From positions 372,001 to 436,000 of the forward strand of contig QEYB01000841.1 in NCBI GenBank assembly GCA_017562135.1: a stretch of 64,000 nucleotides of DNA, given 5' to 3'. The notes below the pieces were generated by a model that ran no database searches, was not told where the DNA came from, and saw nothing but the letters and a program-made list of their open reading frames with translations. Positions within the stretch are counted from its first letter, which is position 1, and each line of letters opens with the position of its first letter. Origin of the DNA: Dipylidium caninum (taxonomy: Eukaryota > Platyhelminthes > Cestoda > Cyclophyllidea > Dipylidiidae). Position numbers and translations under genes: made by a program. Below are positions 1,561 to 49,300 of the stretch, piece after piece.

Positions 1561-3250
1561 GTGGAAAACGTCGTCTTCATGTGAGCCCTCAAAGAAAATT
1601 ACAGGGTGGAGATGCGGCGAATCCCATTTCACTATACGTGAAGACCGTAACGGCGGAGTCGTGTGTACAATTAAAAAGATCTTCCCCATTCTTTGCGGGG
1701 TTAATTAATACAGACGAAGAGGGAATCTATGTAACAATTCGGTCTTGAAAAAATAGCACAAATGTCCAAGTCATTCGGTTGACTCTCAGCACTTCAAGGC
1801 TGGGACGAGAGGGAAAAATCGGTAACACCATCGTCTAAATGACATTTGCCCCCTCAAAACGGCCATGAAATCATCTGAATAGGATGGTTTTCCTCCTATC
1901 CGCCAGACTGATCACCAGCCACTTTAGCGATTTTGCTAGAGGAACAAGTGAAACATTTACTAACAGCTTTTATTTTCTCTATGTTTTTCTTACCCTCGTG
2001 GTTCGTGCTATGGTCAAGCATGTCTAAGAATTTATTTGACCTGTCAAAAGACCCACCGTCAGAGGACTCCTCTTTTGGCGGTCTTGATTAGATAAACCTT
2101 CCTTTGATTTACTCCCAAGGCTGCTGGGAATGTGGGCTGGATTTATGTGAAAACCTAACAGATAAACAATCGGCGTCACGAAGGAACTGCGAGACTCCAA
2201 ATTCTCCCAGTGGTTCCTTGCCATGACTTGTTTCACCCTGTCGTCAAAGACTTGCAGACAATAGAACCGAAGCCAAACGTTTGCAGGTAATCTGGAATTC
2301 CTCCCAACCATGCACTTCTACTCCACGACAATGTCACTTTCTTGCACTAGGCGAGATAAGATATCAATAGTTCATGCTACTTACACAAAAGTTTAATATA
2401 AAGGTTATTATGTAATAGTTTATTTGCAGTAGACTATTTTGAGGATGGCTGTATTTTATGGGTTGTTACAGTAGACATGCGAAACAGCACATCTGTTGAG
2501 AACGCGGAACTTTTTAAGTCTTTTACAGCCCCGTCCTGAAGAATGCCTGGACCTCCGATTTAGCATTTAATTTGTCTGGAGAGGTGAAAGAGATAGACAG
2601 TGGCTTTGCGTTGTAATCACATTTACAGCTAAACTGCAAGATTTAAAGTTCATCGTTGAAACTCAAAAGTATACACCTGACGGTAGACACTTTTCTTTAA
2701 CTACTCATCCAGTTTAACGAGGAAGCGTCGGCTTACTTTAATCTCGGTCTGTCTATAGAATGCCTAGTGTTGGAAAAAGGGTTGTCCAGTCTTACTAAAA
2801 ACAGTGTGATTTTCTCTTGTAGCATCACGAAAACCTTAAAATGGTAATGAAAAGTGCACTGGACTGCTGAGGTGCCAGAGCACTTGACAATTTTTCATTG
2901 AGAATTAAATTTAAATTACTCAATTAGGCTAACTTTAGGGTAATCTGGCAGTAAAGAGGTCAGTTAAGAGGCTTCAATTTTCCAAGTTCTTGGAAAAACT
3001 GCCAAAAAAAGTACTGCTAGAACGCGAAACTATGGGAATGTCGGAACGAAAACAGGAAAGAAGGCATTTGTGGCTGGTGTGTCCACAAAAGTAAATGGAG
3101 GTGGAGCGGCGAGAAAGGTATGTAGAGTGCTTTGAAATGAACTAACCAATCAACTAGACGGACGAGTTGACCAATCCAAAGTTAATTCCTCCACGGAAGA
3201 TACAGAAAACCTCAAATCAACACAAAGTTTAATAATTTTCTCCCCTTGAG
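1561..3250. other. No recognisable gene; region upstream of GPCR
   Basis: No conserved coding exon, RNA gene or tandem repeat is visible. The last few hundred bases should include the promoter and 5' UTR of the GPCR starting at 3251, but no convincing TATA or initiator element could be assigned. Confidence 0.4.
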
Positions 3251-5110
3251 ATGGACTACAACATATCCACCTCAACATCCTTCATCTCGAATTCTTCTCT
3301 ATACGTAAATTTCACTCTTCGACCTGCGATTTACTACAGCTTTCCCTACCGCCTTCTAGGCACAATAGCCGCAACCCTCATTCTTGTCGTCGGTTTGTCT
3401 GGCAATCTCCTCGTAATCACTGTGATTATGTGGTCTTCAAAGATGCGCAGTCCAACAAATTGCTATCTCGTATCTCTCTCCTTCAGCGATATGCTCTTCC
3501 TCCTTCACGCCACGGCTCCGTTCATCTGGGATCTCTACGTTATGATTGGCCAGTGGACACTTGGCACTCACGCTTGTCGAATTATCGTTGCCATGCAGTA
3601 CTTCTGTGTAGACACTTCAGCTCTTTCCATGGCGGCATTTTCGGTGGAACGCTGGGTAGCCATCTGCCATCCAATGAGAGCACAGACCCTCTGCACCGTT
3701 AATAGAGCCCTTAAAATCATCGCGGGTATTTGGATTTTCTGCGGTGCCTACAACTGTGTATGGCTCTTCACTCTCGATACCCAGGCAGTCGAATATGTCT
3801 ACGGAACGTATTATACTTGTACATACAAATTCTCACGAATGCGCTACTCCACAGTCTATCTCCTCGATTTTATCATCTTTTACACCGTTCCACTCGGCTT
3901 GATATTCGTCATGTACACCCAGATAACCCTGCGGCTCTTTAAATTCCACAAAACCCGTCTGGTTGACTTCGAGTAATACAAAATCTGAGGCTATGGGCAA
4001 GACGCATGGACGAGTAGAACGCAGAAGTAAGGCAACGTCGAGTGTGAGTGCAGTGGAATCGACAGGACAGCCTACCGGGTGTCGGAATGCGGGAGGCAGT
4101 TCCGTTCAAGGAAGCAGGTATGAAAGTCGTCAACTCCAATTCCGCCTTTCATACATTGTGGCCATTAAAATTGGTAGGTGTAACGTGGCAGTGAAGCGTA
4201 GTTTGGGGGGGTGGGTGGGGTGGCACGAAGTTGAGGTACAGGCATGCATAAGAAACGACTGTGAATGTCAAAAAAGCGTAAAAATCGGAAAACACTAATC
4301 AAAATATATGAATAGAAGAAAAGGAATACAAATAAAGAATACTTTTAAGTAAAGGGGAGCGATAGGCGGAAAACCAATTTAAAATTGATGTTCAACATCG
4401 AAGATGCCCATTTATGTCAATGCATTTGGTGAGAAGAGGTGATTGTCTGTGACCACACACTGCTTGCGCAATGTGTGGTCAACCATAACGCAGCATTTAT
4501 GATTTCACCGACACATCGCGTGTGACGTGGATAATCGCACACTTCGAAGGGTTCAACCTACACTCTCCACACTCCACCGTCAATCGACTGGCGCGTTGAC
4601 GAGTCGGTAGCCCAACAGACCACCAGACATCACGTCCGGCTTAGGGTCCGGGCACGCACAACAACATAGCCTCTGCATTCTCCTCCTTACTCCTTCGCTT
4701 CACGTCCCCTCAAGGTCGTCAAGATGCTGATGGCCGTAGTCCTCCTCTTCGCCGTATTCTGGTTCCCCTACCGCACCCTCGTCGTGTACAACAGCTTCGT
4801 CACACCCAAACGCACCGACTACTGGCTCATTCTCTTCGTCAAGACAATGGCCTACCTCAACTCCACCGTCAATCCCATCCTCTACAACGCCATGTCTCGC
4901 AAGTTCCGTCGTGCCTTCCGCCTCCTGATCACACGAGGTAAGACCACCGCCCTTCCCAGCCACATCCCACCGCACACCACGCCACCCACCATTTTGCCAC
5001 TCTACTTCAACATCTTCAGCCGCGTCTCACGCCCAACGCCCAAAGTACAACGCCCAACACCCACACCCCACACAGGGCTCAGGACACGGGGCACAGAGCA
5101 CAGTGCATAG
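3251..5110 (+). CDS. Thyrotropin-releasing-hormone-receptor-like GPCR (three exons)
   Basis: Class A seven-helix receptor for a peptide ligand at the plasma membrane. Exons: 3251-3972, 4054-4117 and 4715-5110 (393 residues if read to the stop); phases agree (2, 0). Exon 1 gives an N-terminus with N-glycosylation sequons (NIS, NSS, NFT), then helices 1-5, with GLSGNLLVITVI, MRSPTNCYLVSLSFSD, the ERW form of the DRY motif followed by VAICHP, and the extracellular disulphide cysteines (HACR; YYTC). Exon 2 supplies loop 3 ending SRKQ. Exon 3 gives VVKMLMAVVLLFAVFWFPY, then the helix 7 motif NPILY. The order and motifs match TRH receptors best, but the ligand is unknown. The 81-base intron removes an in-frame stop at 3974. 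A strong donor (GAG|GTAAGA) at 4937/4938 suggests that the true C-tail may lie in a later, unidentified exon; the read-through tail is Pro/Thr-rich and unlike the family. Confidence 0.85.
4450..4481. repeat. Perfect inverted repeat in GPCR intron 2
   Basis: TGACCACACA at 4450-4459 is the exact reverse complement of TGTGTGGTCA at 4472-4481, giving a 10-base-pair stem with a 12-base loop. It lies just upstream of the duplicated exon fragment. No function is assigned. Confidence 0.5.
4528..4690 (+). pseudogene. Decayed exon fragment inserted in GPCR intron 2
   Basis: These roughly 163 bases match the reverse complement of 10933-11093 with about ten differences by eye. In the 11 kb copy the stretch is open coding sequence on the minus strand (translation includes VDNRTLRRVQPPLSTLHRQ). 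Here the same frame reads on the plus strand but has a CAG-to-TAG stop near 4608 and a one-base insertion near 4645, so it is a dead copy. Its pyrimidine-rich end lies about 25 bases before the splice acceptor of GPCR exon 3 (4713-4714) and may supply part of that acceptor's pyrimidine tract. Confidence 0.75.
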
Positions 5111-28389: not shown

Positions 28390-29769
28390 ATGGGGTCGTT
28401 ATTAGGCCTACTCTCCTTACTTAACACAGTGCTGACAATTGTGTTCGTCCAGGTTTCAAAATCAGAGGAGTGTCCTTTCAGTTGTTTTCTGTCTGGAGAT
28501 CAGGAACTACTCTGCTCACTGTATCCAAATAATACTTTGGAGGTAGCAGTTGCCTGTCGGAAGGACTTGATGAATGATAGGTTTATCATTGGCAACCGGA
28601 GCAGCATTCGCCGAGTTATGCCTGGAGGATTGAAAGACATTAGCAAGTTTGACTCAGAAGGGACTCTCAACATCTTTCTTAATACAAATATCCTCGAGCT
28701 AACCACGACGTCTTTCACCGGACTTGAAGATGTTCTTAGCAGCCTGGAGTTCCTTCATGTGGGCACCATTCACCCGGATACTCTCATGAAACATGGGAAA
28801 ATTGCCTCGCTCACTTTCGACAGTGATCGAGTCCCTCAACTGCCTGATCACATCAGACTTGGGGCCGATGTTCCTGCATTTCTACGTCTACAACCTCAGG
28901 ATCCCAGCACGCCAATAGAGGTGAATATGGATGTCCGATGTCACAAGTGCGTAGGGGAAAAACCTTTCCCCAAATCCACAATACTGACGTTTTCTTTACA
29001 CGACTCCACCAAGGCAGCAGATACTCTTGACACTCTTACCATTGTTTACATGGATACTTGTCCGACCTTGAGCAACGCCTTGGGCTGCCCAAAGAATGGC
29101 TCCATTGATGACTACATTGTGCTCGTTAATGCCTCAAGCGGTTGGGAGGCTCCAATGGGTGAGTCTGAGGAGAACTTTGCGACAGTAGCGAGTGGAAGTA
29201 CCAAAACGAAGCCATTATTATTGTCAGTGATAATTTGGTGCACTGTTCTTACCCTCCTCCTAATTTGCCTCATCATCGCCATGGTCATTCGGCGACGAAT
29301 TAGAGCGAAGAGACGGGCAGTGGAGAGACGTGACACATCGCCACGTCGTTATTCTGCGACTTCCTTGAAACACATCATTTGTGGGACTGCTTCATGTGAG
29401 GATCTGCGTCGAGTATCTCTGAGCAACGGTGGGACATGGGTCTACGGCACACCGTCTCAGAACTCCTGCTCGAACCTTCTAAGTGAAACCCGCAGTCAGT
29501 ATTCTTTTCGGCCGCCCCTCACTAATATGTGTTATCCACATATACGTGAAAGTATGTATTCTACCGAGTTGCCATCTGGTTACCGCGCCTCCATACCAGA
29601 TATTCTCACTTTGGTTCCGCGAAGTAAACCGTTTATGGGGAACGGTGATGTCCTCCTCATGAATGGAGATCATGCCCTGCCTGCGTTGCCGCCAAATACC
29701 GAGTTTAGAGTGTCTGCCACGCCCTCATACAAGCGGTCTCACGATGGTACCTTCAAGATGGTCCAGTAA
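28390..29769 (+). CDS. Orphan type I membrane protein, single exon, 459 residues
   Basis: One uninterrupted frame from ATG to TAA with all the parts of a cell-surface protein. Residues 1-25 form a hydrophobic signal peptide. The ectodomain runs to about residue 272 and starts with a cysteine cluster (CPFSC, LLCSL, VACRKD). It has several N-glycosylation sequons (NNT, NRS, NGS, NAS) and short leucine-containing segments that loosely resemble a degenerate leucine-rich-repeat array with an N-terminal cap. A transmembrane helix at about 275-299 (LLLSVIIWCTVLTLLLICL) is followed by an Arg/Lys stop-transfer run (RRRIRAKRR). The roughly 155-residue cytoplasmic tail is rich in Ser, Arg and Tyr and could be a phosphorylation platform. 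I do not recognise a named family; the leucine-rich-repeat reading is tentative. The single-exon structure contrasts with every other gene here. Confidence 0.82.
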   Translation: MGSLLGLLSLLNTVLTIVFVQVSKSEECPFSCFLSGDQELLCSLYPNNTLEVAVACRKDLMNDRFIIGNRSSIRRVMPGGLKDISKFDSEGTLNIFLNTNILELTTTSFTGLEDVLSSLEFLHVGTIHPDTLMKHGKIASLTFDSDRVPQLPDHIRLGADVPAFLRLQPQDPSTPIEVNMDVRCHKCVGEKPFPKSTILTFSLHDSTKAADTLDTLTIVYMDTCPTLSNALGCPKNGSIDDYIVLVNASSGWEAPMGESEENFATVASGSTKTKPLLLSVIIWCTVLTLLLICLIIAMVIRRRIRAKRRAVERRDTSPRRYSATSLKHIICGTASCEDLRRVSLSNGGTWVYGTPSQNSCSNLLSETRSQYSFRPPLTNMCYPHIRESMYSTELPSGYRASIPDILTLVPRSKPFMGNGDVLLMNGDHALPALPPNTEFRVSATPSYKRSHDGTFKMVQ

Positions 29770-38700: not shown

Positions 38701-40670
38701 AAACTAAGTAAGCGGACATCGGCATAAAGGGTGAAACTGTCGGCCATGAAAACAAGGCCAACACGTTGGTTACAATTCACCAGTTGCTTTTGGGAATTAG
38801 GCAAACCTCAAGTGAAGGCTAAGTTTAGATTTTGACTAGATTTCGCTGCTGGGTGCATGCAATTTCCTAGCCAAAGTAAAAGTTCGCTTGGTGAGCCAAG
38901 ACGGAGAGGCAACTAATCACCATAGTAACGGGGTGTTCGGGCTGCGTCATCAACATCTCAGATTTTGAAGAAAGTAGTGAAAACGTTACGGTTTCGGCTT
39001 GTTCCCACCTAAAATATCTTTGAACAAGCGGCGCCGGCGTCAGATAGGTAATTGGCTAATGATTTACAAAATTGAGTGGCATCGTCATTAACTTTAATTT
39101 CTTGCACAGTGAAAATTTTCCCAAAGCAAATTCTAAAATTTTACAAATGTGCAAAGGAGGATGTGGCTGCGCGCCTATCTCCCTGTAATTCACGAAATGG
39201 AGGCTCATAATTACTTTTGTTAAACAGTGTCTTCGGACAAGCTCCTCAGTCTACGAGCAATGGCTTTCCAGCCTAATCTGTGCCGGTGTTAAACTCATGC
39301 TAGCTGATAAGATAACAATCTCAGAGACGAAAACGGGATATCAAACAGCATCTTTTACGGTCGAAGGCTATGGACAATTATAAGAAATACACGGTGGCAA
39401 TGGGGTGGTGCCGTATGCGATCAGTGCACTACGTACGCTTCGCCATTAAACCACTACAGTTCGCCAAAGTTTGTGGTTTTATTCTTGGGTTTGGAGACGT
39501 ACCTAACCTGCGCGATGGTGCGTGAAAAGTCAGTCCAAAAGACTAAGAATTTTAGGTTTTATGAGGAAGTGAAAGACTCTTAGGCTGCAGTAGGATATTT
39601 ATGTCGATCAGGGGGCAGTACGACGTCGCCGAGAGACTTGGTAACAATTGGCATATGATGCTTCTCAGGGCGACAGGGACGTAACCAAACAAAATTACGG
39701 CTGAACGAGCGCAGGGTGTCTCATTACGAAGCTGTTTGTAACTTTCAGTGTGTACTTGCCTGAACCATGGAGCGAGGAAAGGGGAATCAGATGTGCGAAG
39801 ACAACATATAAAAGAAGCATAAACTGTGAATGCCTCCGATTACTTGACCAAGGGTGGACTAGAAAATGTTAAAATTTAAATGAGCCTCTTTTCAAAGATA
39901 AAATTACTTTAACCACTGCTCATTATCAAAAGTAAGAGTGGTGCTTAGAGAGGGCCCCACCATGTATAAAATTCGATTACTGAAGTTCGTCATTGACGCC
40001 AAGGATTGATATCTAATACCGATACTATTGAAACCGTTAATATCCGCTAGAGTTGAACTAAATGGTACAGTTTAAATTAGAATGTCAAACGTTCCGTAAC
40101 TAAAATATAGAATGACGAGCGAACATTTACGCTAGTATAGAAGTATTTTTAGTTCTGGTCCGCTTTTACTCCTTGCTGGGGCTGTAATGCTCCTGTCGGT
40201 TATTGAGGATAAAGAATTTATCTTATTTCGAAGGCCTACTACTATGCTCAAGGGGGCCGAGCGTTCTGGACTCTATTCATTATGAGAATATTTGGAGCTC
40301 GTGAAAAATATTTTTAGTCAGCTATATCTTCACCCTATAATGGTAGTTTTTAGCGCTACTAGGGATCCTACGTTTTGCTGTCTTAAAGGGATACATCGAT
40401 TCTTTCAATGCGGTTATGCTGTAAATTTAGACAGACCGCTATGAACCAAAGCAAATTCATGTTAAGAAAAATCCTTGATTATTATCATCCATAAAATGGT
40501 TTAAACCATGAAATACAGTACATACTCTATCTTGTTAATAACCAGGACAATAATCTTTTATCACATTTGATTTTTAACGACCTTACCGTAACCAATTAAC
40601 ATACCGATTCATCTTATTGGTTCATTTACGCTAACAGGGAGACGTCATTCGTGTGCATGCTTGGCGATGA
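29770..40670. other. 10.9 kb with no recognisable gene
   Basis: A CA-rich tract lies at about 29797-29832 just behind the membrane-protein stop, a (GT)n run at about 33643-33657, and a C homopolymer near 31675. Open frames are short and unremarkable on both strands. No transposase, reverse transcriptase, tRNA or conserved exon was recognised. It may hold diverged mobile elements, long introns or non-coding RNA that cannot be seen without alignment. Confidence 0.4.
38687..38712. repeat. Perfect inverted repeat
   Basis: CTTACTTAGTT (38687-38697) and AACTAAGTAAG (38702-38712) form an 11-base-pair stem with a four-base loop, in intergenic sequence. No function is assigned. Confidence 0.5.
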
Positions 40671-43600
40671 ATGTCAGCGGCATTGAACTCACGCGAATAT
40701 CACCCCAAGTTAAGTGCTGGAATGCGTACTGTACAGAGATTGCTCCCATATGTTTTATTGGAGTTGACCACAGGTAAAATATTTGCATACTTTACTACTC
40801 GACTAGATGTGACCGGAATAGGGGTAAGGCGGCTTGGACTCATCATTCATTTGGTGAACACATATGCAGTAATTGTAAACACTTTTTTGATTACATTAGG
40901 TAATTTTATCTTAATGATTAAATCGTCAGTAAGTCTTCAGGGGCTTTAACAATCCACCAAGACGCATGGTATCGGCGTTTGAAGGAGTGGACTGATAGTT
41001 TTAAGGACTGGTCTATGCCCTATGGCAAGAAGACAAAACTTTCGGTATATGACTTCATTACTAACAACCTGTTGCCATGGTGGGTTCAATGTAACAACTG
41101 TGGACGATGGCGACAGATATCTATTGGCCTTGCTACAAAGCCGGAGATATTCAGCCCCGAATTCACTTGCTCGATGCTTTTGAGGGTAGGTAATAGGTAT
41201 TTCTATATGTCTTTCAAAACACATTTTCACGATCAATTTTTTTTGAACTCTTAGCTCAGAGCTGACCCGTGCTCACAACCGGAAGATCAGGTAAACGGCT
41301 TCGTCATATTTATGCAGATGAGCTTTTCTTAATGTACGAATTTCTTGTTTTCGTATTTCATGTCTTGTGATTTTGTTCGTTGCAGTTTCGAAAGTATTTG
41401 GCCAACCTCTTTTTACAGTTGGATCTCTTAATTTCTGGTGCTACGTAATTTAGCACTTTAATAATTTTTTTTTCCAGCGGATCACCTTGGTTTTACATAA
41501 CCGTGTCAACTTTCAAGCTAGCATGCAAATGCCTGGACTGGTGCATAATAGCCCGCTAATCTATCTTTGCCCTCTTTATTCACCTGTCTTGTTGGGAATC
41601 GAACCCCCCTCCCTTGGAAGTGATATTGATTCGTCCAAATTTGATGATTGGTCCTTGAGTAAGTTCGCGTACTCAGATTGCATCTCTTTGATTTATTATC
41701 AAGCAAACGACTTCTCGAATTAGGTGTAAACTGTTATCTTGCATAACCGAGATACTCGTAATTTGTCTCTTATTTGAATGGGCTAATCTTGATCAATTTT
41801 TCCTATCTCTTAGTTAATCCCCCAAAATATGGTAAACGCTTTTTCTGTCCTTAGATTACCCCGAGTTTCGTAAACCATTCTGTAGACCAAACGAATTTCC
41901 CATTCCTCCCGGTTCCTGGTCGCCCATTGAGCTATTCAAATGGGAAAACTGTACATTCCCCTTCATGACTCGGTAAGGCAACAGTCAGTAACTTTTTCCT
42001 TATCCTGTTCTATGAGCTAACTCTACCAATCTTTTGTAAGGTATCCGTCACTTTATCGGGCCATAAGAAATACTGTGATATATCTTTGGAACCACAAGGG
42101 ATTCGTACGTTTTCTCGTTAAATTCAGTTAAGTTTCAGATTAGAGAAAGTTGCAGTGTTAGTGTCTTTTTTATTGCAGCGTTTCATTACTGCCAGGATCG
42201 CAGCAAGGCACCTATTCATCCGTGGACTGATAAGAATAGTAATTGTTGAAGTGTGGCTCCCTTTCCTCATTGCTCACTTAACCTATCGGGGTTTAATAAA
42301 CGTTGGACCTTGTGTATTACTGAGTCAGGTATGTAGTATTTTCTCAAAATTTTATCTACACTTTGATGTTATTCATGTATCTGATTGAATTTCGAGTTTT
42401 TTTTTCGGTGGTATACGCTCATATTTTTAAAACTTGGGCGAACTTTGGCCAGGTGTATAAAGCTACTAAAGATCCGAAAGTAGCTAGTATTTAGAGGGAG
42501 CTTTTTCATAAATAGGAATGATTGGTCAAATGATTTCAGTCTGCCGGATTTTTCGTAATTAACGTATTTACTCATAGCTTGGCTTCTCTTGATTCATTGT
42601 CCTCAAGCTTATACTAATTTTAGCCTGTTAGCGCAAAACCACGACGAACTTTAATCATTGGACCCACTGATTTAAAATCGGCTATCTTGAAATGTCAACT
42701 GCGAAATAGCTTCGAGCTCCGCCGAGGAAATTCGAAGAACGCATCCGATACAGTCGAATTCTATGCAGTTGAAAGCATCTCCACTCCCAGTATATTTGGG
42801 CAATCCCAATGTAGTGTTATGTTGGGAAATGGAGTCCAGGTGAGAGATTTCTCTACTTTGGGTTCTATTTGGGTCTTAATTAAACTACTATGTCTTTTTT
42901 TATTTTGAATATAGAATGAAGTTATGTTCTTGAACCACGGCATTGGTAACCACGTAGTTGATCCAGTCAACAATAACGTGATGGTGCTCGCTCATCAAGT
43001 TAGTTCCAATAATAAAAATCGAAAATGATCATATAAAAAGGTACTTTCTCCAGGTTTCACTCCTCTTATAGTTGAGACTAACAACCGCAATTGAGCCGTC
43101 TCCTATCATCTTCAACACAAGGAGTGAGAGGCTGGTGGTTATCGTTCAAGATGTCTTCATTCGCGTTCAGAAACATGCCTATGAAGTTTTTCTTCAAATA
43201 ATGACCGAAAATGCAGTTGGAAATGAATTCTCTAATGCGATGACTGTACAAGGTATTGTTGACCTTTTTTAACCTTTCCTTAAACGAACGGAGCCTAACC
43301 CGCTTTGTCTTGATTTTTCAGAGAGGTTCGATGCTATACACCTCAAAATGATGAAACGGTTCTCAGACCAGGCAGATTTCCAGGTACATAGAGACACGAT
43401 GTGTAAGTAACGAGGTATGAGGTCGTTGATGTACGCTTCTGTCTCTTTCGTGCAGAATGACTCACAACTATGTGAGTACTTTCTCGGATGTATAGAGGAG
43501 CGACTCGTTGAACGTTTCCTCGTTTCGGATGATGAGGACGCTCCATCAAACGCTTCCCTTTGTGATATCCCCCTCACGAAGCTGCGTTCCTTCCTATCAA

Positions 43601-45197
43601 AATCCGATCCTTTTTATCTGCATTCATTGAGCCTGCTTACTGAAAACTATGAACCCCTCGACTTCATCGGGATTAATGCCCATGAAATGCTGGTCAATCG
43701 GCTTATTTCATCTAGCTCTAAGGAGAATCGAGTGTGTGGTGTTGTTGTGAAGCATATCGGTCCAGGAAGCGGTCTTTACGTCCTACGTAGAGATGACACC
43801 GAATTGCAGCCAGTCGCCTCTGTATGTTTGTAATTTCACGAATTTTTCTACTTAAAACTTGTTAGTGCAACTTTGTTCCCATATAGGTTCTGGTGACTCT
43901 GCCGAGCAAAGCCCTCAAGATTATCTTTTGTGATGATCCGCTAGAAGAAGCACTTAACTTGGACTCTATGATGGCAGAGGATGATATTTTATCTATCTAT
44001 TTGCCACACCACTTCCGGATCCCCTCCTGCCAAAATAAGCTCAATGAGAAGGAAGTGTCAGACATGCCACTGTGCATCTCAGTGACCCTCGTATATCCGT
44101 CTCCTTGGTGGCGTACGCTTCTTAGTAGGGCGATGGAACCTGACTCGCTTCTGCTTGAGGGTTACGGAGTTGACCTTGATGAATTCCCAGAGGATAGCAG
44201 AGCTCCGGCTTTGTTCTCTTTCATTCCGGAGGATCGATCGTTGCGCGGCTTTTGCCATAACTTTAGGGACATATCTCCATCCGTATGTTACTTACCTGTT
44301 TTATTTGTCTTGGTATCTCCTTTAAGTATAGGAGAATGTTACTTCATTTAATATTTGATTTTGCAAGGAACCAGCGGACGGCGTGGGCATTATCCAGACG
44401 GTGATTCTTTCGGGGAGCATCGATGGCCTTTGGGCAAAGAATGACACAACGGTAGCTCAAATGGTGCACTCCTACTTGGTAAGAAGTCTCAAAGCTGGTA
44501 AAGGCTACATCCGGAGGTACCTCGCTAGTTCGGTGAATCGGCTGTATTCTCCGGCAGCATCCCATACTGCCGAGAATGCGCCCTTCTTGGAGGCCAAGTC
44601 TGTGAAGCCATCACTCAAAAATGTTGGCTTGGCCGTTTCTTTCAAAAATGCGCGAGACTCGGAGGTAGTGTCGACTGAGACGAGTTTTTCTATCACGAAG
44701 GATTGGTGGAGACTGCTCTCAGATGGAGCATCTATTCACGTTTTGCCCGAGTTGACACGTTCGTCTGAAACTACCAATTCTGGAGAGGTATTTTTCCTAA
44801 TTAATGGCTAACTGAAGAATGTTTGCGTGGAATTTCCTTGTCATTTTTATCGTAGAATGAAGGATTGGCGAAGGATGCTCTCTCATGGGCTGTAATGAGA
44901 GGTTTGAGGTGGGCGAAGTTTTACCTCTCCGAGAACTCATCTACATGCTGGTCGGAGAAACGTGCGGTGGCTAGTCTGATGGCTGCAACTATAAACCAAC
45001 GTGATGCAACATGCACAGACAACACTCCTCTTTCAATGGAGGATGCTGCTGTTGATGATGACAGAAGTGGTGATAGCGAAAATGTTGACGACGATGACGA
45101 ATCGGAAAATCTGGTACCGGGTGCATTTAAACGTTCCTCTCTGTCCCTACGGCGGTCCTCCCGATCCACTAAAAGACCTTGCACTTTACATTTATGA
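40671..45197 (+). CDS. KDM1B: KDM1B/LSD2-like protein with degenerate amine-oxidase domain
   Basis: Fifteen exons, all phase-consistent, 991 residues: 40671-40773, 40941-41185, 41255-41290, 41478-41658, 41855-41972, 42041-42116, 42179-42328, 42624-42839, 42915-42998, 43072-43252, 43322-43383, 43456-43821, 43887-44282, 44368-44787, 44856-45197. KDM1B normally demethylates histone H3K4 using FAD. Order here: CW zinc finger (WVQCNNCGRW, zinc cysteines about 85, 88, 111, 122, ending CSQPED); SWIRM at about 228-295 (YRAIRNTVIYLW, FIRGLIRI, LTYRGLINVG); amine-oxidase domain from about 310. That domain is broken in function, not in frame. The dinucleotide motif reads IIGPTDLKSA at 314-323 instead of GxGxxG, the GGRV motif is absent, the catalytic lysine aligns near Ile670/Ser671, and no GEAT-type motif follows. 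VLVTLPSKALK (607-617) keeps the family signature. The tail is acidic then Arg/Ser-rich. A stop lies in frame just before ATG 40671; the N-terminal C4H2C2 finger of vertebrate KDM1B is not seen. Confidence 0.88.
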
Positions 45198-46322
45198 CTT
45201 CTTTTCTAGTCGTACTTGCAAGTCACTACGGCTTTCCGCTAAACGCATTTGCTTATGGCGTCCCGGGCCGAGTCTCCTATTTATTTCCCTACTCTGTTTT
45301 TGTATCTGGACGCCCCGTGCATTCCAAGCTAGCAAATGTCTCAACAGATTACTCATATTTTTTTCTAATTGGTTAATATATTTTAATTCCTAAGGATTTC
45401 AGCACTTTTCCTTTTAGTCTAGGTCGCAATTTTTATGGTTTCTCGGGGCTAAAAATTGCGGCCCTTCTTGCTGGGGAGTAGCACATTTGTACTAAAAGAA
45501 GTAGAAATACTAGTCTTACAGAACGACCGTTGATTTGGCTAGGTGGCGACATCATGGCAGGGCACTACAATTGTCACCAAGTCCACTTAGTATTGAAATT
45601 GCTCTTTCCCTCCGATTCACAGTCATAGGTAGACGTCAGGAACGCTACTGAACTACGGTTTCTTTCAGTACTTGCCAGGTATTTAGGCGCCACGACAAAA
45701 GGAAAATGTCGACACTTGAGTCGCTAGGAGGAGGAATGCCCATGGTGTTGTGAGAGAAAACATTCCACGACCGAATGACATGACGGATTTTGTAAGGTAC
45801 AGTCCACGTAGTCAAGATTTGCCCGGTTGAAGAAAGTCCAACAGAAAGCATGTTTCGTTATTTATCTGAAAAGACCTTATTGCCGCTGACTCACAAATTC
45901 CAGTATATGCATTGTCAATGCTCGATCAACTATGTCCGACGTCACCGAATTTGCGACACCGGTGAGTGGATCGGAGAGGCGCGAATTCTTGTGTATTGCA
46001 TCCTGTTATAGTAAATCACTGTTAAAACACATTGAGGATACTGCGGTGGGGCTCGGAACCTAACGCCAGGGACGTTGTCGTGTTTGCCCGTGCAATTGTG
46101 GAAATTATGAACAGCACGCTGCATCGCCCTTCTGAGGAGTGTAGGACGGTCAATGTAGAAAATAGAAAATGTGAACATTGAAAATCTTGAATTTTCCTCC
46201 TAAAGATCATATCGCGATGAGAGACCTTTCTCAGTGCTTTCAGGAGGAAATTGAAGCAAAATGAGTGTCTCACCAACACAGCATCATTGGGAAATACAAT
46301 AGACTGTACATTTCGATAGATT
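45198..46322. other. Convergent intergenic region between KDM1B-like and KRI1
   Basis: The two genes end towards each other with about 1.1 kb between stop codons, so this holds both 3' UTRs. A perfect inverted repeat lies here (see separate entry). No clear AATAAA signal could be assigned to either gene by eye, and no further gene is visible. Confidence 0.5.
45425..45460. repeat. Perfect inverted repeat behind KDM1B-like stop
   Basis: CGCAATTTTTA (45425-45435) and TAAAAATTGCG (45450-45460) give an 11-base-pair stem with a 14-base loop, about 230 bases after the stop codon and so possibly in the 3' UTR. Possible roles in 3' end formation are speculative. Confidence 0.5.
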
Positions 46323-49300
46323 TTACATCTTTCCACTACAAATAAGGAATTTATACTGTTTAGGATCAATGCCAGCCGCTCTCAGACGCTCATCCGAGAG
46401 TTTGGGCCTCTTAGAGGCGGGTCTCTTATGCTGAGTCTCACTCGCCATGGTCTCGGATGATTTGTGCTTTCGTTTCTTCGTTGGCCGGCGCTTTTGTGCC
46501 CTTTCATCACCTGATTTAGAGTTGGCATTGGGTGTAAATTTATCACCACTTTCCTTGGCTTCGCCCTCGACTGCAGCCAGCGCAGAGAAAAGTTCAGCTT
46601 TGCGCTGTTTTTTTCGAAGACGTTTCAAGGCTTTCCTGAAAAGTGATAAAAGTTTACATGCAGTGCCCTCAAGTTACAATACTTATCAATTTTGAGCAGT
46701 ATTAATAGTGCAAGTTAAAAAAGAAAAAAAATTGAGTAGTGAACAAGTTTTGAGTAATATTGCCCCATGGGAGAATACATTTGTGCTACAGAAAACATAT
46801 GTGAATAAAAAGCATTGCATAATCGAGCCCTTCAACGAAACCATTTGAGTCAGTTTTGCTTGAAATAGACCATGCAAAACCAGTCATTGGCCACCCGAGA
46901 CTAAACCTGTCTCTACAAGGAACATCTTTCCGAAGGTAAGTGACGGCTTTACTGAGAAGAATATGGTGGAAAGGTAAGATACATCCAGAAGATCTCCTAA
47001 ATGACTATGACGAGAATCGGCTGGTACCTCAAATAAAGAAATAGATGCGGTTCGCAATGACTTTTCCGCTTCGAGAGTGAGGGACTGCCTCAGGGCTGCA
47101 TGTGGGTGCAGTGGAAGTCAATGGGAAGTTGGTGAATTCTACAACGAAAGTTAGTTGAACTCACTTGGAGAGCCGTTTCTCCTCGTCCTCTGCCGACTTC
47201 TCGTCTTTTGCCGACTCCGCCTTCGCACTTGACGTCTGCTTCGCCTCATCTTGATCGGTTTGTTTATTCACAAGAGAGGGGATAATAGAAGTCTTCTTTT
47301 TCAACATCCTGTAAGAGTGGTATTTCCGCAAGTCACGCTCTTCCTCCTCTTCCGTCCTGTTAACCAAATGGTAATAAAGTCAATAAGCATCCGGCGGTGG
47401 CAACACAACCTTGTTTAAGATTAAGCAAAAGAGGAGGCAAGCCCAGGAAGTGCAAAATGCTGCAATCTATTTCACCACGCTACTTCATACGTTTATGCGT
47501 CGCTAATGTCTTCTACCACACAGCCATGACATTGAAAGTAACTTTTCCGTACGGCTACCCAGTCAGTCACCAATCTTATGCCCATGTGCTCGCTTCCTTT
47601 CACCATCTGAAGGTGACATTTCAAACTTGCAACTGTCAGTATACGCGTGAAGGATCTTGTCATATCCAACATCTTCACTAAAGCCAATCTTCTCCCCTAA
47701 TCTGGTTAAGTATGGTTAATATTGACTCTACTCCACTCCACTGAATGTCACCAGAGCAAACTGGGGGCTGGAAGCGAAGATATCGCTACTACAATCCTCA
47801 CCAACGTCAGACAATCACCATTAGAAATTCTATGCGGAATAAATGTCATAATTAGGAGCGACGGATATCTGCATGCCCGTAACTCTATCCCTTAACACAT
47901 CCTGCTCCGCCCACCAAACACAGAGCCTTGTCCAACGGTACTAAGGGGTCCAAAGTATCTCATTCCTCTGATCACTGCGACGTATTGCTGGCCAAAGGCG
48001 CTCACATATACCGAGGTGCGATAACATTTCAGTTTAACTTGAAATAGACTTAAAATGGTGTTCATAAACTAACCTGTATTTACTCATGGCCCTCACAGAA
48101 ACCCAACGATTCAATTCCTTCTCGTCAGCGTCGAGGATTTCCTCCACACTCAAACCGAAGTCGTTAGGTTTTACTTCGCGGTATTTGAAACGACAATGCA
48201 CATCGTCGCCTGGACCCGAGCCATTGATGATGTCTTCACAGTCTAGTTGATAGAACTCATTGAAGTACTTTTCGAAATCGGGATACAGTGTGGGATCGAA
48301 TACAGGTTTTTTCTTATCTAAAGCACTCCGTAGGAGTGACCGAGAATGCTCCCTTTTGCCACGTTTCTTTGAAGACATGTTATTTTCCAGTTCCTTCGCA
48401 GCTCGATCCAGAGCCGATGTTTTCACCTCTCCACGAGCCCCATTTTCATACTTCTCCCCTCGCGAGGAATTGTCAGTGACGCTGTTTTCATCATGATAAT
48501 CGGAGAGCCGCTACAAAAAAGGAAGTGAGACAGACATCCCCTATAATTAGCAAAGGCATTATGAGACAAAGGAAGCTAAGATGTCTCAAATATGACTCGC
48601 AATCGAAAAAAAAGATCCTCATAGTGTCCTCAGTAATAGCAGACTACGACCCCGCCATATCGGGTTAATCCAGGAGATCCGTAAAGTGCCCTGCTAAAAG
48701 GCCGATTATTCAAACTATACCAAAATCCTCAATTGCGTGCGTATACACATATGAAATGAGTATACGCATTGGTTTCGGAAATAAACGGGAACACTCCAGA
48801 CTCCTCTCCTTAAGAAGGCATTAAATCTCGGACAAAATGGTAATTTTACACTCGCAATGTTTGGTATTAAGAGCCCACCACGCCTGACAGTTGACAAGTG
48901 AAGTTATTGGCCGTTTTGAAGGAATAAATAAGAAAGCCAAATCACCTGTCTCGGAATATAACCATCGTAATCACCGTTGTCAAGGCGGAGAGGAAATAGG
49001 TTGTCATCTTCATCCGACTCAACTTTCGGTGCTTCATCCAAATTGTCATCAGCCGTCTCGGCGCCATAGTAACTGTCGTCGAAAAGCTTAGCAACAAGAA
49101 CGATCGTGGGCCTCAGGATCCCAATCATTGTCTAATGAGTCAATAACTTCTTCGGTCACCTATAGGAAATAGGCTCCAGTAAAATATTTTTAGAATTAGT
49201 GTAATTGATGGCGAAGTGGACACTTAAATTGAATTTCGTGGTTACGCAAATTATGGCAAGAAGGCACAACGTATATCAGGTAAAAAAAGGGGGTTGTTAA

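Follow-up and report, generated by a model that had tools for sequence, protein, structure and literature searches.

A stretch of 64,000 nucleotides from the tapeworm Dipylidium caninum (contig QEYB01000841.1, positions 372,001 to 436,000 of the forward strand; hereafter the window) carries a gene derived from KDM1B (LSD2), and we consider it very probable that the tapeworm product of this gene became a pseudo-demethylase, most likely a non-catalytic chromatin scaffold. Four features, established at the level of sequence, carry this reading: the N-terminal architecture of KDM1B is present, the loss of the motifs for catalysis and for binding of flavin adenine dinucleotide (FAD) is common to five sequences, the reading frame has been kept, and a KDM1A gene with intact motifs resides in the same genome. 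An earlier interpretation, made from the DNA without database searches (the sequence-only reading), had already proposed a pseudo-demethylase, and this proposal is supported by our analysis, in which the motifs were found to be lost from the window gene and its four relatives, with the frame and the SWIRM domain retained.

Gene model and relatives

The assembly searched comprises 106 Mb in 920 contigs, the window being part of contig C164. Joining of GT..AG sites and reading frame yielded a predicted gene of 16 exons at 40667-45197 (+ strand), with a genomic span of 4531 bases, which encodes 1023 residues; the spliced frame contains no internal stops. The claim of the sequence-only reading that the gene is intact and spliced is thus borne out, as is the uninterrupted frame, although its count of 15 exons and 991 residues has to be corrected. 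The start proposed there (40671) lies in a different frame.

Protein searches yielded four relatives alone, namely proteins from Taenia solium, T. crassiceps and Hydatigera taeniaeformis and the sequence P0001, and no fluke, planarian or Hymenolepis sequence. The Hydatigera entry is labelled 'Guanylate cyclase' at its source, which is likely a misannotation. An equivalent start is found in two of the relatives, since the N-terminus of the window protein (MNVSGIEL, from the ATG at 40667) aligns with MNISGIEL in P0001 and with MNISGIEF in T. solium. Our first model, of 1029 residues, included an 18-base exon (41814-41831), which was removed because it is absent from all four relatives; this model was used for the phmmer and Pfam searches, the search for relatives and the first alignment, and the 1023-residue model for all later analyses. 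The features of the gene, all on the + strand, are as follows.

40667..45197, +: whole coding sequence, 16 exons, 1023 residues, ATG at 40667 and TGA at 45195-45197; collinear with the four relatives, some of whose models miss exons
40667-40773 and 40807-40899, +: exons 1-2, C4H2C2 zinc finger, aligned to human KDM1B; 75% identity to P0001
40930-41185 and 41255-41290, +: exons 3-4, linker and CW finger (zf-CW, E 1.6e-9), four Cys retained
41478..41658, +: exon 5, linker between CW finger and SWIRM; 75% identity to P0001
41855-41972, 42041-42104 and 42179-42328, +: exons 6-8, SWIRM, the best conserved part; 78% identity to P0001 and 81% to T. solium
42624..42839, +: exon 9, where the degenerate, putatively amine-oxidase-derived domain begins, with G-P-T-D-L-K at 42660-42677 in place of GxGxxG
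42915-42998, 43072-43252, 43322-43383 and 43456-43821, +: exons 10-13, continuing the degenerate domain to the end of its first half, with the anchor VNNNVMVLAHQL
43887..44282, +: exon 14, VLVTLP anchor and Ser (TCA, 44079-44081) in the catalytic Lys column, from the alignment of five sequences
44368..44787, +: exon 15, LPELT (44743-44757) at the GEAT position, from the same alignment
44856..45197, +: exon 16, last helix followed by the C-terminal tail, with an acidic stretch and the terminal LRRSSRxxKRPCT

The N-terminal third is that of KDM1B

The order of the N-terminal modules in the window gene (C4H2C2 finger, CW finger, SWIRM) is the same as in KDM1B. Human KDM1B (4gu1) was the top match in the PDB, with an E value of 4.5e-28 (phmmer) over residues 9-336 of the first model, which correspond to residues 9-330 of the final one. 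This alignment spans SWIRM and confirms the domain named in the sequence-only reading, whose Pfam profile gave a weak signal (two of the five members, best E 0.086). The CW finger, which had been named as well, was matched by Pfam zf-CW (E 1.6e-9, residues 118-164), with zf-CW matches in three of the five sequences. In the C4H2C2 finger, the eight presumed ligands are retained in the alignment with human KDM1B; the ligand identities are, for both fingers, those that we take to apply. The C4H2C2 finger (exons 1-2) had not been mentioned in the sequence-only reading.

Loss of the FAD-binding and catalytic motifs

The motifs on which the chemistry of the family depends were lost from the window gene and from all four relatives, as the sequence-only reading had claimed for GxGxxG, GGRV, the catalytic Lys and GEAT in the window gene. 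The position of GxGxxG is occupied by GPTDLK, GPMDLK or GSMDLK in each of the five sequences, so that two of the three glycines of the FAD motif are missing throughout, and that of AGEAT is occupied by LPELT or LSELT. The catalytic Lys column (K661 type) was located via the adjoining FPYRFW/YPSPWW block and contains Ser in all five (human GIIEKIALQFPYRFW, window PLCISVTLVYPSPWW); the Ile that had been offered as an alternative to Ser at this position was not seen.

A pattern search detected neither GxGxxG nor GGR in any of the five proteins, and the sole GENT, found in T. solium, lies elsewhere, within a variable stretch. An alternative exon restoring GxGxxG or GEAT had been named as an observation that would overturn the proposal; no exon within the locus restores the motifs, since GxGxxG, GGR[VI] and GE[AHN]T are all absent from the + strand frames of 40500-45600. 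When the Amino_oxidase family was run against all six frames of the genome, eight matches on four contigs were obtained (E <= 0.001), none of them at the KDM1B-derived locus.

Since the parts needed for FAD binding and chemistry are missing, the product is probably a non-enzymatic chromatin protein. We infer that the degenerate domain does not bind FAD, and oxidation of methyl-lysine would not be expected of it either.

Descent of the C-terminal two thirds

Residues 336-934 appear to descend from an amine oxidase. Most comparisons were not significant, so that the case for an amine-oxidase origin of the final 680 residues depends on the order of the parts and on short anchors. The anchors, convincing on visual inspection, are collinear with those of KDM1B and comprise an IIG-type strand right after SWIRM, NNxVxxxxxQL, VTLP and a FIPxDRxxRG..F.D block. 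The anchor VNNNVMVLAHQL of exons 10-13 is the counterpart of human INNPVALMCEQL, and the FIPxDRxxRG..F.D block aligns to human FGHVPPSASKRGLFAVFYD. The pattern NNxVxxxxxQL, preceded by I, N or V, fits four of the five sequences, the Hydatigera protein having FNNDVMLLAHQL.

Several results weigh against our interpretation. In hhalign, the comparison with active KDM1 sequences scored 15.5, with shuffles reaching 25.5, and a second comparison scored 19.3, a value equalled or exceeded by 16 of 60 shuffles. BLASTP against the oxidase domain of human KDM1B returned no match even at E 1000; the same target was matched at 1.6e-49 (database size set to 5e8) when the KDM1A of this genome was the query. 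Pfam Amino_oxidase was reached by one of the five sequences, at an E value of 0.1 that does not pass the cut-off. Alignment scores of the five sequences exceeded those of shuffles by z values of 2.3-4.8 in global mode but 0.9-2.0 in local mode (29.8 and 76.6 for the KDM1A positive control). With a profile of the five sequences, human KDM1B came out on top of 301 entries, 300 of which were shuffles, but at 1.3 bits. AlphaFold2, supplied with P0001 and three relatives, gave no usable fold (mean predicted local distance difference test score 27.2, predicted template modelling score 0.20). The N-terminal third contributes a further point: the C4H2C2 finger is complete in just two of the five sequences, those of the window gene and P0001. 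The models from T. solium, T. crassiceps and Hydatigera miss exons in this region, the one from Hydatigera those of the fingers and part of SWIRM; it is for this reason that, apart from P0001 and the window gene, no sequence has both fingers complete. The missing exons are presumably annotation gaps.

The lack of significant similarity to amine oxidases in hhalign, BLASTP and Pfam is what would be seen if the finger-SWIRM part alone came from KDM1B and the C-terminal 680 residues were a domain of other origin, added once the oxidase had been lost. We regard this as improbable, given the collinear anchors, the first rank of KDM1B among 301 sequences (even at 1.3 bits) and the global z values. 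Descent of the whole protein from KDM1B is therefore preferred. Of the claim that the scaffold of the amine-oxidase domain was kept, the collinear anchors stand and the significance does not; the C-terminal domain is also too divergent for insertions such as the tower to be placed.

Conservation and selection

Overall identity amounts to 64% between the window protein and P0001, 58-60% between the window protein and those of Taenia, and 71-76% between P0001 and Taenia, which suggests, as far as these proteins can indicate, that the window species falls outside the Taenia-Hydatigera group. The window protein and P0001 differ by five gaps of 1 to 4 residues each. Their identity is 75% in the C4H2C2 finger, 62% in the CW finger and 78% in SWIRM; along the degenerate domain it is 52%, 61% and 66%, and in the tail 58%. 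Judged from these values, the oxidase-derived part is less constrained than SWIRM. The terminal LRRSSRxxKRPCT is present in all five sequences. The tail itself (44856-45197, residues 935-1023) combines an acidic run with a basic end, and possibly contains a nuclear localisation or docking motif.

P0001 has 1021 residues and is encoded by contigs of at most 3417 bases, which is below the genomic span of 4531 bases found here; it is therefore probably a spliced transcript, derived from messenger RNA. When the gene was allowed to drift neutrally to 64.5% identity in a simulation limited to substitutions, a mean of 18.4 stops (minimum 7, 200 runs) accumulated, and none is observed, so that the frame looks to be under selection. 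The argument of the sequence-only reading that a clean frame speaks against a pseudogene is upheld by this result.

A decaying pseudogene whose frame is still open would be consistent with the rapid change in the first part of the degenerate domain (52% identity to P0001, set against the 50% that the KDM1A of this genome retains to human) and with the exons missing from three of the four relatives' models. It is nevertheless very unlikely in view of the 16 stop-free exons (about 18 stops would be expected), the same motif changes in three other named species and the one probable messenger RNA.

A probable non-catalytic chromatin scaffold

The idea that the protein is instead an active, highly divergent enzyme, with another mode of flavin binding, another cofactor or an activity such as the E3 ubiquitin ligase activity reported for human LSD2 (PMC11118440), is hardly credible. 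Conservation of both the altered DLKSA motif and the ELT block, at which something is thus selected, speaks for it. Against it, all five sequences have lost the Lys, GGRV, GEAT and two of the three glycines of the FAD motif, and among the regions measured against P0001 none evolves faster than the initial part of the degenerate domain.

The scaffold that we favour would act through its finger-SWIRM module and its remodelled C-terminal domain, which may contact nucleosomes or partner proteins, and flavin-dependent demethylation of lysine 4 of histone H3 (H3K4) would be carried out by KDM1A. LSD2 is stimulated by NPAC/GLYR1 and, in humans, doubles as an E3 ubiquitin ligase (PMC11118440); a scaffold free both of catalysis and of NPAC control would be the simplest account. 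The sequence-only reading had spoken of a chromatin reader or scaffold. Non-catalytic scaffold is the safer wording, and reading of H3K4 methyl marks by the CW finger is no more than possible, as two passages on KDM1B disagree. In one, the CW domain of KDM1B seems inactive through steric inaccessibility and is assigned a role in stability and regulation (PMC9043364); in another, a figure legend, KDM1B is counted among the CW proteins which retain the floor Trp for H3K4me3 (PMC5811534); and a passage of a review proposes that the CW region is essential for demethylase-independent repression (PMC11241480).

KDM1A, paralogs and NPAC in the genome

A second LSD gene with intact motifs, such as the sequence-only reading had suggested looking for, is present. 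The KDM1A on contig C262, which is among the eight Amino_oxidase matches, retains GAGVAGL, GGRIW, LNKV and GEHTNR; it was matched to human KDM1A via a joined query, with 223 of 446 positions identical in the amine-oxidase part. A DNA search of the genome with the KDM1B-derived locus found one copy. The one further place at which a CW finger was detected is on contig C452 and is MORC-like by eye, from its GHKL pattern. The SWIRM family search hit one place (contig C300) and missed both KDM1A and the KDM1B-derived gene, and is thus insensitive for paralogs.

A dehydrogenase of the NPAC/GLYR1 type was not recognised in the genome, although one might be concealed by split exons, and the eight PWWP places detected were left aside. 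Of the two dehydrogenase domains of NPAC, NAD_binding_11 had no match at E values up to 1, and the NAD_binding_2 matches were by eye 6-phosphogluconate dehydrogenase and, below the cut-off, 3-hydroxyacyl-CoA dehydrogenase (contig C296 being among the places).

Comparison with known systems

The protein shares with animal KDM1B/LSD2/AOF1 the order of C4H2C2 finger, CW finger and SWIRM (E 4.5e-28 to the human protein), and differs from it in the absence of the FAD motifs and catalytic Lys, in the degenerate C-terminal domain and in the acidic-basic tail, which is not found at the end of human KDM1B. To our knowledge, natural pseudoenzymes of the LSD family have hardly been described, and no report of a catalytically dead flatworm LSD2 was found in the literature searched, whose coverage mostly left out subscription papers. 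Members of a demethylase family retained without catalysis are represented by JARID2 and other inactive KDM relatives (passage in PMC11241480); JARID2, however, belongs to the JmjC family and is not flavin-dependent. The Lsd1 and Lsd2 proteins of Schizosaccharomyces pombe likewise have functions beyond amine oxidation (PMC7226997), but these are demethylases with extra roles and not natural pseudoenzymes.

A further parallel is offered by Schistosoma mansoni, which differs in having two putative LSD2 genes (SmLSD2; Smp_160810 and Smp_162940). Their products possess both fingers and SWIRM, and their similarity to human LSD2 is weak (E 1e-6 and 1e-8; both statements from PMC6288008), with identities of 28% and 27% (PMC7077139). 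These E values are far weaker than the 1.6e-49 reached even by the paralogous KDM1A of the tapeworm genome against the human LSD2 oxidase domain, the searches being different ones. Tentatively, and with more doubt than confidence, we propose that catalysis and NPAC/GLYR1 were lost before the tapeworm-fluke split, that the protein has served as a scaffold since, and that the schistosome LSD2s may be pseudoenzymes too.

The window gene could provide a natural test of the role of LSD2 without catalysis. Tapeworm entries named 'Lysine-specific histone demethylase 1B' may be poor targets for FAD-directed LSD inhibitors, for which KDM1A would be a sensible one; the schistosome LSD2s, for which druggability scores are given in PMC7077139, are perhaps equally unsuited to such compounds.

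Other features of the window

A single open frame of 459 residues at 28390-29769 (+), without a Pfam match at E 0.01, appears by eye to encode a product that is secreted or inserted in the membrane, given its hydrophobic N-terminus and a single likely transmembrane segment. A Rhodopsin-type G protein-coupled receptor is encoded at 3236-5110 (+), with a 7tm_1 match (E 7e-38) over 3236-3976; a second open frame (4670-5110, +) resembles, by eye, the C-terminal part of this receptor. A gene on the opposite strand, downstream of LSD2, includes a KRI1 C-terminal domain (48034-48510, -; E 5e-24).

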